From: Candidatus Sabulitectum sp.
GTDB lineage: Bacteria > Fermentibacterota > Fermentibacteria > Fermentibacterales > JCC-6
Assembly: GCA_021107435.1 (NCBI GenBank)
Contig: JAIOSV010000116.1
Coordinates: forward strand, 1 to 64,000
DNA: 64,000 nt
Direction of reading: 5' to 3'
In this document: positions 16,869 through 23,364 of the stretch, in pieces
Numbering within the stretch: position 1 is the first letter of the stretch
How the letters are laid out: each line of letters opens with the position of its first letter
Notes under the pieces: generated by a model
The model's database searches: none
Told to the model about the DNA's origin: nothing
Seen by the model: the letters and a program-made list of their open reading frames with translations, nothing else
Translations under genes and position numbers: made by a program

Positions 16869-17447
16869 TCAGTTCCTGCTTGAGTAGAAGAGGTAAACCA
16901 GTGCTGTTACAACTCCTGTAACAACCAGAGGTTCAAGGATGTTACCGCTTTCCTCGTCAGAAAGCTCACCGTTGGCCCATTCTTCTGTTGAGCTTTCCAT
17001 TATGATGATGTCCGATGAAGAAATTGTATTCTCTATTACAGAACCCTCCCGAACAGTAAGAATCACATCACCCTCAGGATCAACAAGGGTTGCGGCAATT
17101 TCACAACTGGCAAGTCTTGGGACCTGTTTTCCTCCGAATATCCAGCTTCTCCTGGTTTGCGCGTATGTGACTCCAAGTTCCATTGGTCTCAGATTGAGTA
17201 TCCAGCCCCCTGCATCTCTTGATGTATACACTGTAACTCCGGCAGCCCCCAGTGTATGTGTGGCTATCTGCTCTATGAGCCAGCCTCCTTCATGCTCACC
17301 CTGAATATTCAAAGCAATAGTTTCAAGACCCTGAGAGGATACCTGTTCGGCAACAGGTTCCAGCGCATTCAAAACGGCAGTTTCAAGCATATCAAGATTG
17401 GTCATGGATCCGGTGAGCACAAACCCTAGCAGGAAAGCTGTTATCAT
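16869..17447 (-). CDS. Conserved hypothetical protein with C-terminal TM helix
   Basis: Intact ORF in an operon-like arrangement; C-term PLVVTGVVTALVYLFYSSRN. Confidence 0.5.
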   Translation of the reverse strand: MITAFLLGFVLTGSMTNLDMLETAVLNALEPVAEQVSSQGLETIALNIQGEHEGGWLIEQIATHTLGAAGVTVYTSRDAGGWILNLRPMELGVTYAQTRRSWIFGGKQVPRLASCEIAATLVDPEGDVILTVREGSVIENTISSSDIIIMESSTEEWANGELSDEESGNILEPLVVTGVVTALVYLFYSSRN

Positions 17448-19365: not shown

Positions 19366-19980
19366 TCAGTGAATGGACGGAGCAAACACGGCATCGCTGC
19401 CCACAATCACCAGTACATCATAGCCTTGTGCCACCGTGCCAATGAGTTCCTCTCCCGGTCTGTATGCAACATTGTCGGGATGCGAGAGCCATCTCCCCAG
19501 AGAATCGGCAACAACGGACGCGGCGACGTCATACCCATGTCTGTAAAACACAACGGTAAGCGCCGGGGCCTGATCATCCGTTATCTCCGTGACTCCTGCT
19601 CCAATGGTTCTTAAAGCCGCGCCTACCGCAAGGATGCTGGCATCAACTGAAGGTTTCCCAACCACCGCTATACGGGCATTGACACTGGGACTACTGGAAG
19701 TGTCCTCTTGCAGTTCCTCGCCGGAAAGGTCACTTTCCACCCGCCTGACGGCCAGCCTGGCATCAGAAACAAGAGGCGAGTTCGGATACCTGTAAATCAC
19801 TCCGTTGAATTCCTCAAGCGCCGCAGTGAGCCTGCCTCTGTAGTAGAGCTGACTTGCTCTTGTGAACTGCTCAAAAGCACTTCCGGAAGATGCCAGTCCT
19901 TCAGAATCAAGCATTCCGCCATTGTCGCAGGCGAGAAGCAGAAAAGTCAGAAACAGAAATAGTTCAGCCCTGAGGTTCAT
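19366..19980 (-). CDS. TPR lipoprotein with LytR_C-like C-terminal domain
   Basis: MNLRAELFLFLTFLLLACDNG signal/lipobox, YRYPNSPLVSDARLAV TPR, ARIAVVGKPSVDASILAVGAALRTIG. The longer ORF start lies inside ftsK. Confidence 0.55.
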   Translation of the reverse strand: MNLRAELFLFLTFLLLACDNGGMLDSEGLASSGSAFEQFTRASQLYYRGRLTAALEEFNGVIYRYPNSPLVSDARLAVRRVESDLSGEELQEDTSSSPSVNARIAVVGKPSVDASILAVGAALRTIGAGVTEITDDQAPALTVVFYRHGYDVAASVVADSLGRWLSHPDNVAYRPGEELIGTVAQGYDVLVIVGSDAVFAPSIH

Positions 19981-22210
19981 CAGTTGCTTCCTCCTGTAAC
20001 GGTTTAACCAGAACGTTTCTGGGTTTGCTGCCTGAATGCGGCCCAACAATGCCTATCTGTTCAAGCATATCAATAAGTTTTCCAGCCCGGGCATATCCCA
20101 CTCTGAATTTTCTCTGAATCATAGAAACAGATGCTCTCTGCTGGGCAATAACAACTCTTTTCACTTCTTCAAGAATCGGATCATCAAAGTCTAATACACC
20201 TGGATCATATAAGTTCCCGTGTTCGTCATCAGGCGGTTCATATTCGAAGGGAAGCTCAGGCTGATTACGCCAGAAATCAACAAGAGCCTTTGTTTCTTCT
20301 GTGGAAATGAATGAACCGTGAACGCGAACAGGTTCCGGAGATCCAGCCGGAACGAACAGCATATCACCCTTTCCCAGGAGTTTCTCAGCGCCGTTCATGT
20401 CCAGAATTGTTCTGCTGTCTGTTTTTGAGCCAACATTGAAGGCAATTCTGGACGGGAAATTCGCCTTGATTACACCGGTAATTACATCCACTGATGGACG
20501 CTGTGTAGCTACAACCAGATGAATTCCTACAGCTCGTGCCATCTGCGCAAGCCTTGCGATAGCAGGCTCTACATCTCTGGCGGAAACCATCATGAGATCC
20601 GCGAGCTCATCAATTATAACAACGATATAAGGAAGATATTCGTCTGATTGATCAGGGCCGAATCTCTTGTTGTACTCATTTATGGATCTGACACCAGTTC
20701 TGGCAAGAAGGGTGTACCTCTCCTCCATTTCTTTAACAAGTGCCTCCAAAAGATATCTGGCCTTTGATGTCTGAATCACAACAGGTGCCCAGAGATGGGG
20801 AATGCCCTTGTATGCGGAAAGCTCCAGCATTTTCGGGTCAACCATCGCAAGTTTAACCTGATAGGGGCTTCTTGTCAGAAGAATCGTAGAGATGATTGCA
20901 TGAACACATACACTCTTCCCACTGCCTGTGGCCCCCGCAATAAGAAGATGAGGCATTTCTGTCAAATCCGCAATAAAAGGCTGACCTTCCAGCCTCTTGC
21001 CGAGAGCAACGGGTATTTTCTCGTTTTTGAACTTCGAAATTATCTCGCGAAGATAAACGGTTTCAGGATTCCTGTTGGGCACTTCAATACCTACAGCTCC
21101 CTTGCCGGGGATAGGGGCAAGTATTCTTATCCTCTTCGCGGCCAGAGCAAGAGCCAGATCATCCGCAAGATTCAGAATCCTGTTGACCTTCACTCCGATA
21201 CCCGGTGTAAGCTCATATCTGGTTAAAACCGGGCCTGGACAGGATGCGGCAATAGTACATTCAACACCAAAATCCGACAGTTTGGCCACAAGAAGATTAG
21301 CCCTGTCCTTGATCTCTGCCGGGCTCTGACCCCGTCTTTCACCATCTGCCGGAAGAGAAAGAAAGTCAGCTCCGGGAAGACAGTACTGGTCGCCGGTATC
21401 AAGTTCACTGCTGGGCTCCGCTCGTTTTGTCATCTTCCTGCCGGCTTTCTCTTTCCCGCGAACAGTTTCTTTTTGTTCGCTCAGGTCAACAGGCGGTTTT
21501 CTTTTCCGGGTAATCTGTGCGTTTGGCTCTTCCTCTATCCCCCCTTCAGGAATCCGCACCGATGGATCTTCATTCACAGGCACATCAACCGGAATCTGCT
21601 GATTCCACGGATTTCCAGCTTCCGGAGGATTCTGCTCGGATGCGACTGACAGGTTCGATTCCGCTGTCTCCACCGGTAAAGATTTCCCGCGTCTGATGCC
21701 GGAAGTTCCGGTTTTAAGCCTTCCGAGCAAAGAATTAATATCTCTTGAGACATCCCAGCCTGTAAAAACTACTACAGAAATAATGAACAGTGAGAACAAT
21801 CCGACCCAGCCGATTACACCTCCCGCAAACCCCTGAACTGCCAGCACAACCCTGCCTGTGAGCTGACCTCCCGCAAAATAAAGAAAATCCGGTTTAATCC
21901 TGCAAAGAATCAGCGAGAGCATTGCGGAAAAGAAAAATACACACACAAATACAGCACCCGTCCGGCGTAACCATTTTTCAGCGAAGTTCAGCCGCAGAAC
22001 AAGTGAACCCGCAAGAAACAGGAAAACAGGCACGAATACTACCAGCAGACCAAGGGAACCGCCGAGAAGAGCACCTGATTCTGCCATAAACCCCGGAGGT
22101 GGCGAGACAAGAGATACAATTACCGCAAGAGCAGTGAACAGAAGGAAAAAGAAAACAGCAGTACGCCATCTGCCGGGTGGCTGCCTTTTGCGCGTTCGTT
22201 TCCCGGCCAA
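19964..22210 (-). CDS. ftsK: DNA translocase FtsK/SpoIIIE
   Basis: Four N-terminal TM segments; LIAGATGSGKSVCVHAII; VVIIDELADLMM; ATQRPSVDVITGVIKANFPSRIAF; gamma winged helix RVGYARAGKLIDMLEQIGIVGPHSGSKPRNVL. Confidence 0.97.
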   Translation of the reverse strand: MAGKRTRKRQPPGRWRTAVFFFLLFTALAVIVSLVSPPPGFMAESGALLGGSLGLLVVFVPVFLFLAGSLVLRLNFAEKWLRRTGAVFVCVFFFSAMLSLILCRIKPDFLYFAGGQLTGRVVLAVQGFAGGVIGWVGLFSLFIISVVVFTGWDVSRDINSLLGRLKTGTSGIRRGKSLPVETAESNLSVASEQNPPEAGNPWNQQIPVDVPVNEDPSVRIPEGGIEEEPNAQITRKRKPPVDLSEQKETVRGKEKAGRKMTKRAEPSSELDTGDQYCLPGADFLSLPADGERRGQSPAEIKDRANLLVAKLSDFGVECTIAASCPGPVLTRYELTPGIGVKVNRILNLADDLALALAAKRIRILAPIPGKGAVGIEVPNRNPETVYLREIISKFKNEKIPVALGKRLEGQPFIADLTEMPHLLIAGATGSGKSVCVHAIISTILLTRSPYQVKLAMVDPKMLELSAYKGIPHLWAPVVIQTSKARYLLEALVKEMEERYTLLARTGVRSINEYNKRFGPDQSDEYLPYIVVIIDELADLMMVSARDVEPAIARLAQMARAVGIHLVVATQRPSVDVITGVIKANFPSRIAFNVGSKTDSRTILDMNGAEKLLGKGDMLFVPAGSPEPVRVHGSFISTEETKALVDFWRNQPELPFEYEPPDDEHGNLYDPGVLDFDDPILEEVKRVVIAQQRASVSMIQRKFRVGYARAGKLIDMLEQIGIVGPHSGSKPRNVLVKPLQEEATDEPQG

Positions 22211-22211
22211 C

Positions 22212-22742
22212 CTATACCTGCCTTACTGAAACGCCGCCGGCATCTGAATTGTATCCCGGATCCGGTTTCCGTAAGCCATCCACCGAAAAGGAATAGTGAA
22301 TCGTCTGACCAGAAGACATTGTCAGCTCTGTAAACCAGCTTCCATCAGGCAGTTTCTGCATAGGCGAGTCGCCCTCATGCCAGTCGTTGAAATCACCTAC
22401 AACAGAAATGGAATGGGCATGGGAGTAACCAATGCAGAAAAATGCCACTCTGGTTCTGGGAGCAAGACTGTTCTGTACAGCATCCCTTAGAGCAGGGTAA
22501 GGTCGGAATACAGCACGGTGACGGGAGGGTATAACCATAACCCCGTCATCACGAGGATCTCTTACCCTTCTCTCTCTGCCCATCCTGGTGCTGAAGCAGC
22601 CGAATCCCCGGAGAAAGACCGAATCTCCTCTGCAGAGCGTCTCCCTGATCACATCAAGAAACGTCACAAGCACAATCTGAACTTCCTTCATGGTGAGACC
22701 GGTTCTTCGAGCAGTCTCCCGAGCCAGTTCCTCCCTTGTCAT
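22212..22742 (-). CDS. HU/IHF-family DNA-binding domain fused to a CBM48/AMPK1-type glycogen-binding domain
   Basis: N-term MTREELARETARRTGLTMKEVQIVLVTFLDVIRETLCRGDSVFLRGFGCFSTR...VFRPYPALRDAV (HU fold); C-term VAFFCIGYSHAHSISVVGDFNDWHEGDSPMQKLPDGSWFTELTMSSGQTIHYSFSVDGLRKPDPGY (VGDFNDW signature). Confidence 0.85.
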   Translation of the reverse strand: MTREELARETARRTGLTMKEVQIVLVTFLDVIRETLCRGDSVFLRGFGCFSTRMGRERRVRDPRDDGVMVIPSRHRAVFRPYPALRDAVQNSLAPRTRVAFFCIGYSHAHSISVVGDFNDWHEGDSPMQKLPDGSWFTELTMSSGQTIHYSFSVDGLRKPDPGYNSDAGGVSVRQV

Positions 22743-22836
22743 TTACGTCCTCCAATGAGTCTTATCTTACCATCTTATGTATCGTTGAATAGCAGGGAAT
22801 CTCCTCCCCGTCAAGGAGTGATGGTATAATTGAATC

Positions 22837-23364
22837 ATGAGTAAGAACATAATAACTCTGGCGGGACCTCCGTGTTCCGGGAAAACAACTGCGGGGAAAA
22901 TACTGTCAGTTTCTCTCAGGGCTGATTTTATTGATATCGATCAACTGATACAACACGACAGCGGACACACAATTGAATGGATGTTCAGCCATGAGGGAGA
23001 AAAAACATTCAGAGCCGCGGAAAAGAGAATTCTAGCTGAAGTTATCTTCCAAACCGCAGGCAGAACGGTAATTGCCCTGGGCGGTGGTGCGCTTCTGGAC
23101 ACTAATACTCGTAAACTGATCGAAAGGGAAACAATTCTTTTCACGCTGTTCGCGCTACCTGAAACTCTTGCAGAAAGAAACAACGGCAACAGACCACTGG
23201 CGGGAAATTCTGCTATGCTGAAAAACCTTATCAGACAAAGAGAAAAACACTACTTATCTCTGGGCAGGCGGATTAATACCGAAAACAGAACTCCCGAAGA
23301 TGTAGCTGAGGCTATAAGGCAAGAAGTTCTCCCTCTGTTGTCTCCACAAGACCGGCCTTGCTGA
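22837..23364 (+). CDS. aroK: Shikimate kinase
   Basis: LAGPPCSGKTTAGKILS; DFIDIDQLI; EKTFRAAEKRIL; VIALGGGALLD. Confidence 0.9.
   Translation: MSKNIITLAGPPCSGKTTAGKILSVSLRADFIDIDQLIQHDSGHTIEWMFSHEGEKTFRAAEKRILAEVIFQTAGRTVIALGGGALLDTNTRKLIERETILFTLFALPETLAERNNGNRPLAGNSAMLKNLIRQREKHYLSLGRRINTENRTPEDVAEAIRQEVLPLLSPQDRPC

Follow-up and report, generated by a model that had tools for sequence, protein, structure and literature searches.

An HU/IHF domain fused to a CBM48-type domain in a protein encoded directly upstream of ftsK in Fermentibacterota

A gene directly upstream of ftsK in Candidatus Sabulitectum sp. encodes a 176-residue protein in which an HU/IHF domain is joined to a CBM48-type E-set domain. 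This HU-CBM48 fusion is genuine, and its architecture, which falls within a known superfamily, has apparently not been described before; the original prediction had named it as its strongest candidate for an undescribed architecture, and a literature search conducted largely outside the subscription literature returned no description of an HU-CBM48 protein. Because HU domains with other appended modules are already known (HU-HIG in Pfam), it counts as a variant and not as a new kind. We posit, at a probability of roughly 0.45, that the protein dimerizes and bends DNA as HU does and that its E-set tail serves as a docking or self-assembly module, with a likely role in segregation or division alongside FtsK.

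HU proteins rank among the most abundant DNA-binding proteins of bacteria, and appended domains show how such a basic architectural protein gains a specific job. Here, a DNA-bending domain is paired with a fold whose other known occurrences are in glycogen enzymes and AMPK. Fixed across the phylum and never apart from ftsK at complete loci, the fusion is a small protein that may be a lineage-specific partner of FtsK in segregation.

The gene and its neighbors

The window is the whole stretch of DNA analyzed, 64,000 nucleotides of contig JAIOSV010000116.1. The features relevant to the argument are as follows.

22212..22742, minus strand: HU-CBM48 fusion gene, 176 aa, ATG start and TAG stop, conserved in the phylum
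22476..22742, minus strand: HU/IHF domain, residues 1-89 (PF00216, E = 2.4e-19; alignment; Foldseek to HU/IHF structures)
22215..22457, minus strand: CBM48-type E-set domain, residues ~96-176, with an apparently degenerate sugar platform (Pfam, alignment, Foldseek, profile)
22745..22755, minus strand: Shine-Dalgarno region (GGAGG) of the fusion gene (sequence)
19964..22210, minus strand: ftsK, 748 aa, alpha, motor, and gamma domains, TTG start (PF17854, PF01580, PF09397)
22837..23364, plus strand: aroK (shikimate kinase), divergent and conserved neighbor (PF01202, E = 2e-31)

The 176-aa open reading frame that the original prediction had placed at 22212-22742, without a strand, exists and is on the minus strand, since the plus-strand reading of these positions contains stops. 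It begins with ATG at 22742, preceded at a distance of about 8 nt by GGAGG, and ends with TAG at 22214-22212. The next gene, ftsK, starts with TTG at 22210, leaving a single base (22211) between the two, so the predicted 1-nt spacing is correct, and the linkage extends across the phylum. On the other side, an intergenic gap of 94 nt lies between the fusion gene and aroK, and a scan for sigma-70 promoters upstream of the fusion gene gave no match. Downstream of ftsK are one gene without an assignment and then lolA and rimO. Near these genes, two minus-strand reading frames (19366-20049 and 16869-17447) have no Pfam match, and the former resembles a repeat-containing lipoprotein.

Conservation across the phylum

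The named relatives (Candidatus Sabulitectum, Candidatus Fermentibacteria, and Candidatus Aegiribacteria) place the window in Fermentibacterota. The fusion is present in 36 of 42 genomes of this phylum and in 23 of the 24 that are of high quality, and the 20 members that were aligned share 47-89% identity with the window protein. Across the 42 genomes, no true loss was found, as all six gaps reflect a missing or truncated ftsK locus: four genomes (G007, G013, G044, and G046) also have no ftsK match, and in two (G049 and G051) ftsK is cut at a contig end. Gene order was examined in 30 distinct genomes (34 loci, 4 of them duplicates of the same contigs), and in all 30, ftsK is the next gene downstream, in the same orientation, with the 1-nt gap in the home genus. 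Upstream, aroK is the neighbor in each of the 27 genomes with enough contig, divergent in 26 and co-directional in 1 (G028).

Could a frameshift or a mis-assembly simply have fused two genes? A few copies from metagenome-assembled genomes are indeed broken: 3 of the 36 are partial, at contig ends or frameshifts (G001, G011, and G025), and one orthologue (L111:872-1402, on G045:C291) has an in-frame TAG at codon 5 (MTKE*LACEV), attributable to a sequencing error or a later start. Beyond those three, no orthologue is split in the related genomes. The identical junction recurs in at least 30 independent assemblies, and purifying selection acts on both halves; the artefact is refuted by this phylum-wide conservation and selection and can be considered vanishingly improbable. 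Median dN/dS in the home genus is 0.06 for the HU half and 0.12 for the tail, ratios that are rough given that dS is near saturation, and mean pairwise identity is 56% for the tail versus 65% for the HU half.

About 340 genomes from lineages other than Fermentibacterota yielded no fusion. When a full-length family profile was run against 385 genomes, the phylum included, matches to both halves came from Fermentibacterota alone, and those from elsewhere ended around residues 90-120, within the HU part. No HU domain was found in 40 outside CBM48 loci (taken from the best matches for short reading frames), and neither CBM48 nor ftsK was found near 96 outside HU loci (20 of the best matches plus 76 others that are almost all from Bacteroidota). 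The phylum restriction thus holds for the 385 genomes sampled, themselves a sample of all genomes. Phages, plasmids, and viral contigs gave HU-type matches only, covering at most 63% of the query, and a viral or plasmid origin was rejected on this basis.

The HU half

The HU-like N terminus of the original prediction is borne out by Pfam, alignment, and fold. PF00216 matches residues 1-89 over positions 1-89 of the 90-position profile, scoring 69.8 bits against a cut-off of 22.4. Invariant among the 20 aligned members are the RGFG motif (R45-G46-F47-G48), R58, R59, R61, P63, and G67, together with I71, P72, F79, Y82, and L85; the arm motif reads RR.R(D/N)P and contains P63, and the IP pair is likewise invariant. 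P63 occupies the intercalating position of HU/IHF-DNA complexes. Given the invariance of these signature residues, the intercalating proline among them, the fusion protein probably bends DNA. Most fusion-bearing Fermentibacterota genomes encode at least one additional, ordinary HU protein, and we therefore regard the fusion as a specialized paralogue and not as the housekeeping HU.

The CBM48 half and its sugar site

The assignment of the second half to a CBM48/E-set domain also holds. On the window protein, PF02922 (CBM_48) matches residues 107-155 just over its cut-off (22.5 versus 22.4 bits, E = 1.5e-4), with orthologues scoring up to 39.2 bits, whereas PF16561 (AMPK1_CBM), at 17.5 bits, is under its cut-off of 26.8. 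A profile built from 16 family tails matched GlgB (1.6e-6) and the AMPK-beta CBM (4.1e-4) in the PDB. In the AlphaFold model of the fusion as a monomer (mean pLDDT 78, pTM 0.51), a beta domain comes after an HU fold; the low pTM means that the model does not fix the relative placement of the two domains. In Foldseek, the modeled tail superimposes on the glycogen-binding domain of AMPK-beta1 (1z0m) with an rmsd of 2.6 A and a TM score by target of 0.75; further fold matches are the glucan-binding SEX4 and a feruloyl esterase CBM48.

In AMPK-beta, the sugar is contacted by W100, K126, W133, L146, and T148, and mutation of these residues lowers glycogen binding (PMC2642990). By alignment, the equivalents of the first three in the window protein are W121, S151, and R158; L146 and T148 lie toward the C-terminal end, and their register was inferred from the shared final strand. 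We counted residues at these positions in 30 family members and in 43 CBM48 domains from outside the Fermentibacterota fusion family; as the 43 were chosen for their likeness to the fusion family, the contrast is conservative. Alignment and counts agree that W100 is the one sugar-contact residue that the family has kept (W in 29/30, and in 43/43 outside). Tryptophan at the W133 position occurs in 1 of 30 family members versus 38 of 43 outside domains. The K126 position is K or R in 29/43 outside domains and mixed in the family (Q, S, K, N, and others), N150 is N in 11/30 versus 32/43, and the G of the GxN motif, present in 41/43 outside, is lost in the family. The tail has thus apparently lost its ligand site, a case of a carbohydrate-binding module doing so.

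What the family has instead is a near-invariant set of its own: M128-Q129-[KR]-L-P-D-G-S-W136, E139, R174, and, in most members, C103. Five of these (L131, P132, S135, E139, and R174) are found in 30/30 members and are rare or variable in the outside domains. Some CBM48 proteins use other surfaces for sugar binding, and a degree of glucan affinity is possible for this tail too, given that it still has aromatics, W121 among them, and that 11 of 30 members retain N171. The invariant patch could be structural, serving in packing or in contact with the HU domain.

A proposed role and its alternatives

In the mechanism we favor, the HU halves would form a homodimer whose basic arms would insert P63 into DNA and bend it largely irrespective of sequence, such that each bent site would display two CBM48-fold domains. 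The tails, no longer AMPK-type glycogen binders, would dock proteins or self-assemble via the surface formed by MQ[KR]LPDGSW, E139, and R174. We speculate that the job is likely in chromosome segregation or division, for example, in organizing DNA at the terminus or connecting it to the FtsK machinery, and that the fusion protein would be made together with FtsK. We propose a role of this kind because ftsK is translated immediately after the fusion gene; the link between the fusion protein and FtsK is solely one of gene order.

It is possible, if somewhat doubtful, that the protein serves general purposes as an HU paralogue or regulates its own operon with ftsK; the tail would then do no more than stabilize the dimer or set spacing, and the linkage would be a matter of operon economy. 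The HU signature is intact, the tail evolves faster than the HU half, and the neighbors beyond ftsK (aroK, lolA, and rimO) are functionally unrelated, all of which would suit such a protein. However, the tail and the adjacency to ftsK are fully retained in all sampled families, which exceeds what is expected of a neutral spacer, and the tail carries invariant residues specific to the family.

Does the tail sense glycogen? The original prediction had offered two options, a nucleoid protein responsive to storage polysaccharide and a domain repurposed for protein interaction. Under the first, the tail would bind a storage glucan, tethering or releasing the HU half and so tying chromosome organization or segregation to the carbon reserve. 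The match of the tail to the AMPK-beta glycogen-binding domain and SEX4 is consistent with this, as is the retained W100 equivalent, and the phylum makes glycogen: GlgA is over its cut-off in 36/42 genomes, glycogen phosphorylase is present in 38/42, and there are CBM48 proteins of GlgB length. An argument from absent glycogen metabolism was accordingly discarded. Yet the equivalents of K126, W133, L146, and T148 are not kept, and no glycogen gene was found near the fusion locus in the window. Moreover, in genome G015, a stand-alone CBM48 protein (L201:522-902, on G015:C65) has the full AMPK-type site, with FNGW, YKF, DGVW, and GLGSLN intact, and lies within 5 kb of a glgA-like gene (under the TIGR02095 cut-off) and a phosphorylase gene on the same contig, which indicates that the phylum keeps proper glycogen binders. 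That the site is intact in a protein for which glycogen binding is plausible, and not in the HU fusion, is the main argument against a sensor; it comes from one genome and leaves room for weak or different binding. We consider the glycogen-responsive reading unlikely, and we give still less credence to a version in which the protein, holding DNA by its HU arms, couples FtsK-driven segregation to a glucan store through a modified CBM48 surface made up of W121 and lineage-specific aromatics. The protein-interaction option fits better, and docking is a more likely function for the tail than glycogen sensing.

Another set of small CBM48-like proteins occurs in the phylum (L199, L200, and L202-L209). 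These carry an apparent lipoprotein signal (a C near the N terminus) and a D(W/M)N.WGG motif and are probably exported.

Comparison with known systems

With the HU/IHF proteins of PF00216, the fusion shares a full-length domain match, the fold, GFG, the arm proline P63, IP, and the terminal helix. It differs in its 80-residue CBM48 tail, in its place before ftsK, and in two positions: most members have D in place of N62, and Y, without exception, stands where G82 is usual. HU-HIG proteins (PF18291; HU with a wHTH, Ig, or glycine-rich motif) likewise append a module, for instance a C-terminal beta-sandwich, to an HU domain. The match of the HU half to PF18291 (32.9 bits, 7.4e-8) is, however, weaker than that to PF00216, and the tail is a CBM48 domain, which places the fusion outside HU-HIG. 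In 2017, Burroughs et al. reportedly described CCDC81-type bacterial HU proteins, in which HU is combined with another module and a role in chromosome partition is predicted. The fusion has both points in common with that description, but its sole match to the group, to PF14908 (CCDC81 euk), is below the cut-off of that family, and it has no membrane segment or other recognized module.

On the CBM48 side, the AMPK-beta glycogen-binding domain, SnRK1-beta, and the GlgB N-domain share with the tail the fold and the FNxW, VDG, and DP motifs. The fusion differs from these in that its sugar platform is apparently lost save for W100 and in that the partner is a DNA-binding domain and not a kinase subunit or an enzyme. 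Small bacterial CBM48 proteins belong to the same family. In other lineages, five loci (L137, L140, L147, L155, and L158) have the CBM48 domain preceded by a short N-terminal region and a membrane segment, layouts that we take to resemble anti-sigma-like proteins; Pfam gives CBM48 alone for the two that were scanned.

A parallel case is a pair of proteins in two genomes of one genus (L157, G267:C28:19861-20379; L164, G127:C68:56362-56850; 70% identity) that join an XRE-type HTH (PF01381) to an AMPK-type CBM48 domain and so also combine DNA binding with CBM48. Small bacterial CBM48 domains, these included, retain W133 and mostly N150, whereas the HU fusion does not, and with the W133 and N150 positions intact, the XRE-HTH-CBM48 pair is a candidate glycogen-sensing transcription regulator and arguably a better case for a glycogen sensor than the HU fusion. 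This parallel suggests that CBM48 has become joined to DNA-binding domains on more than one occasion.
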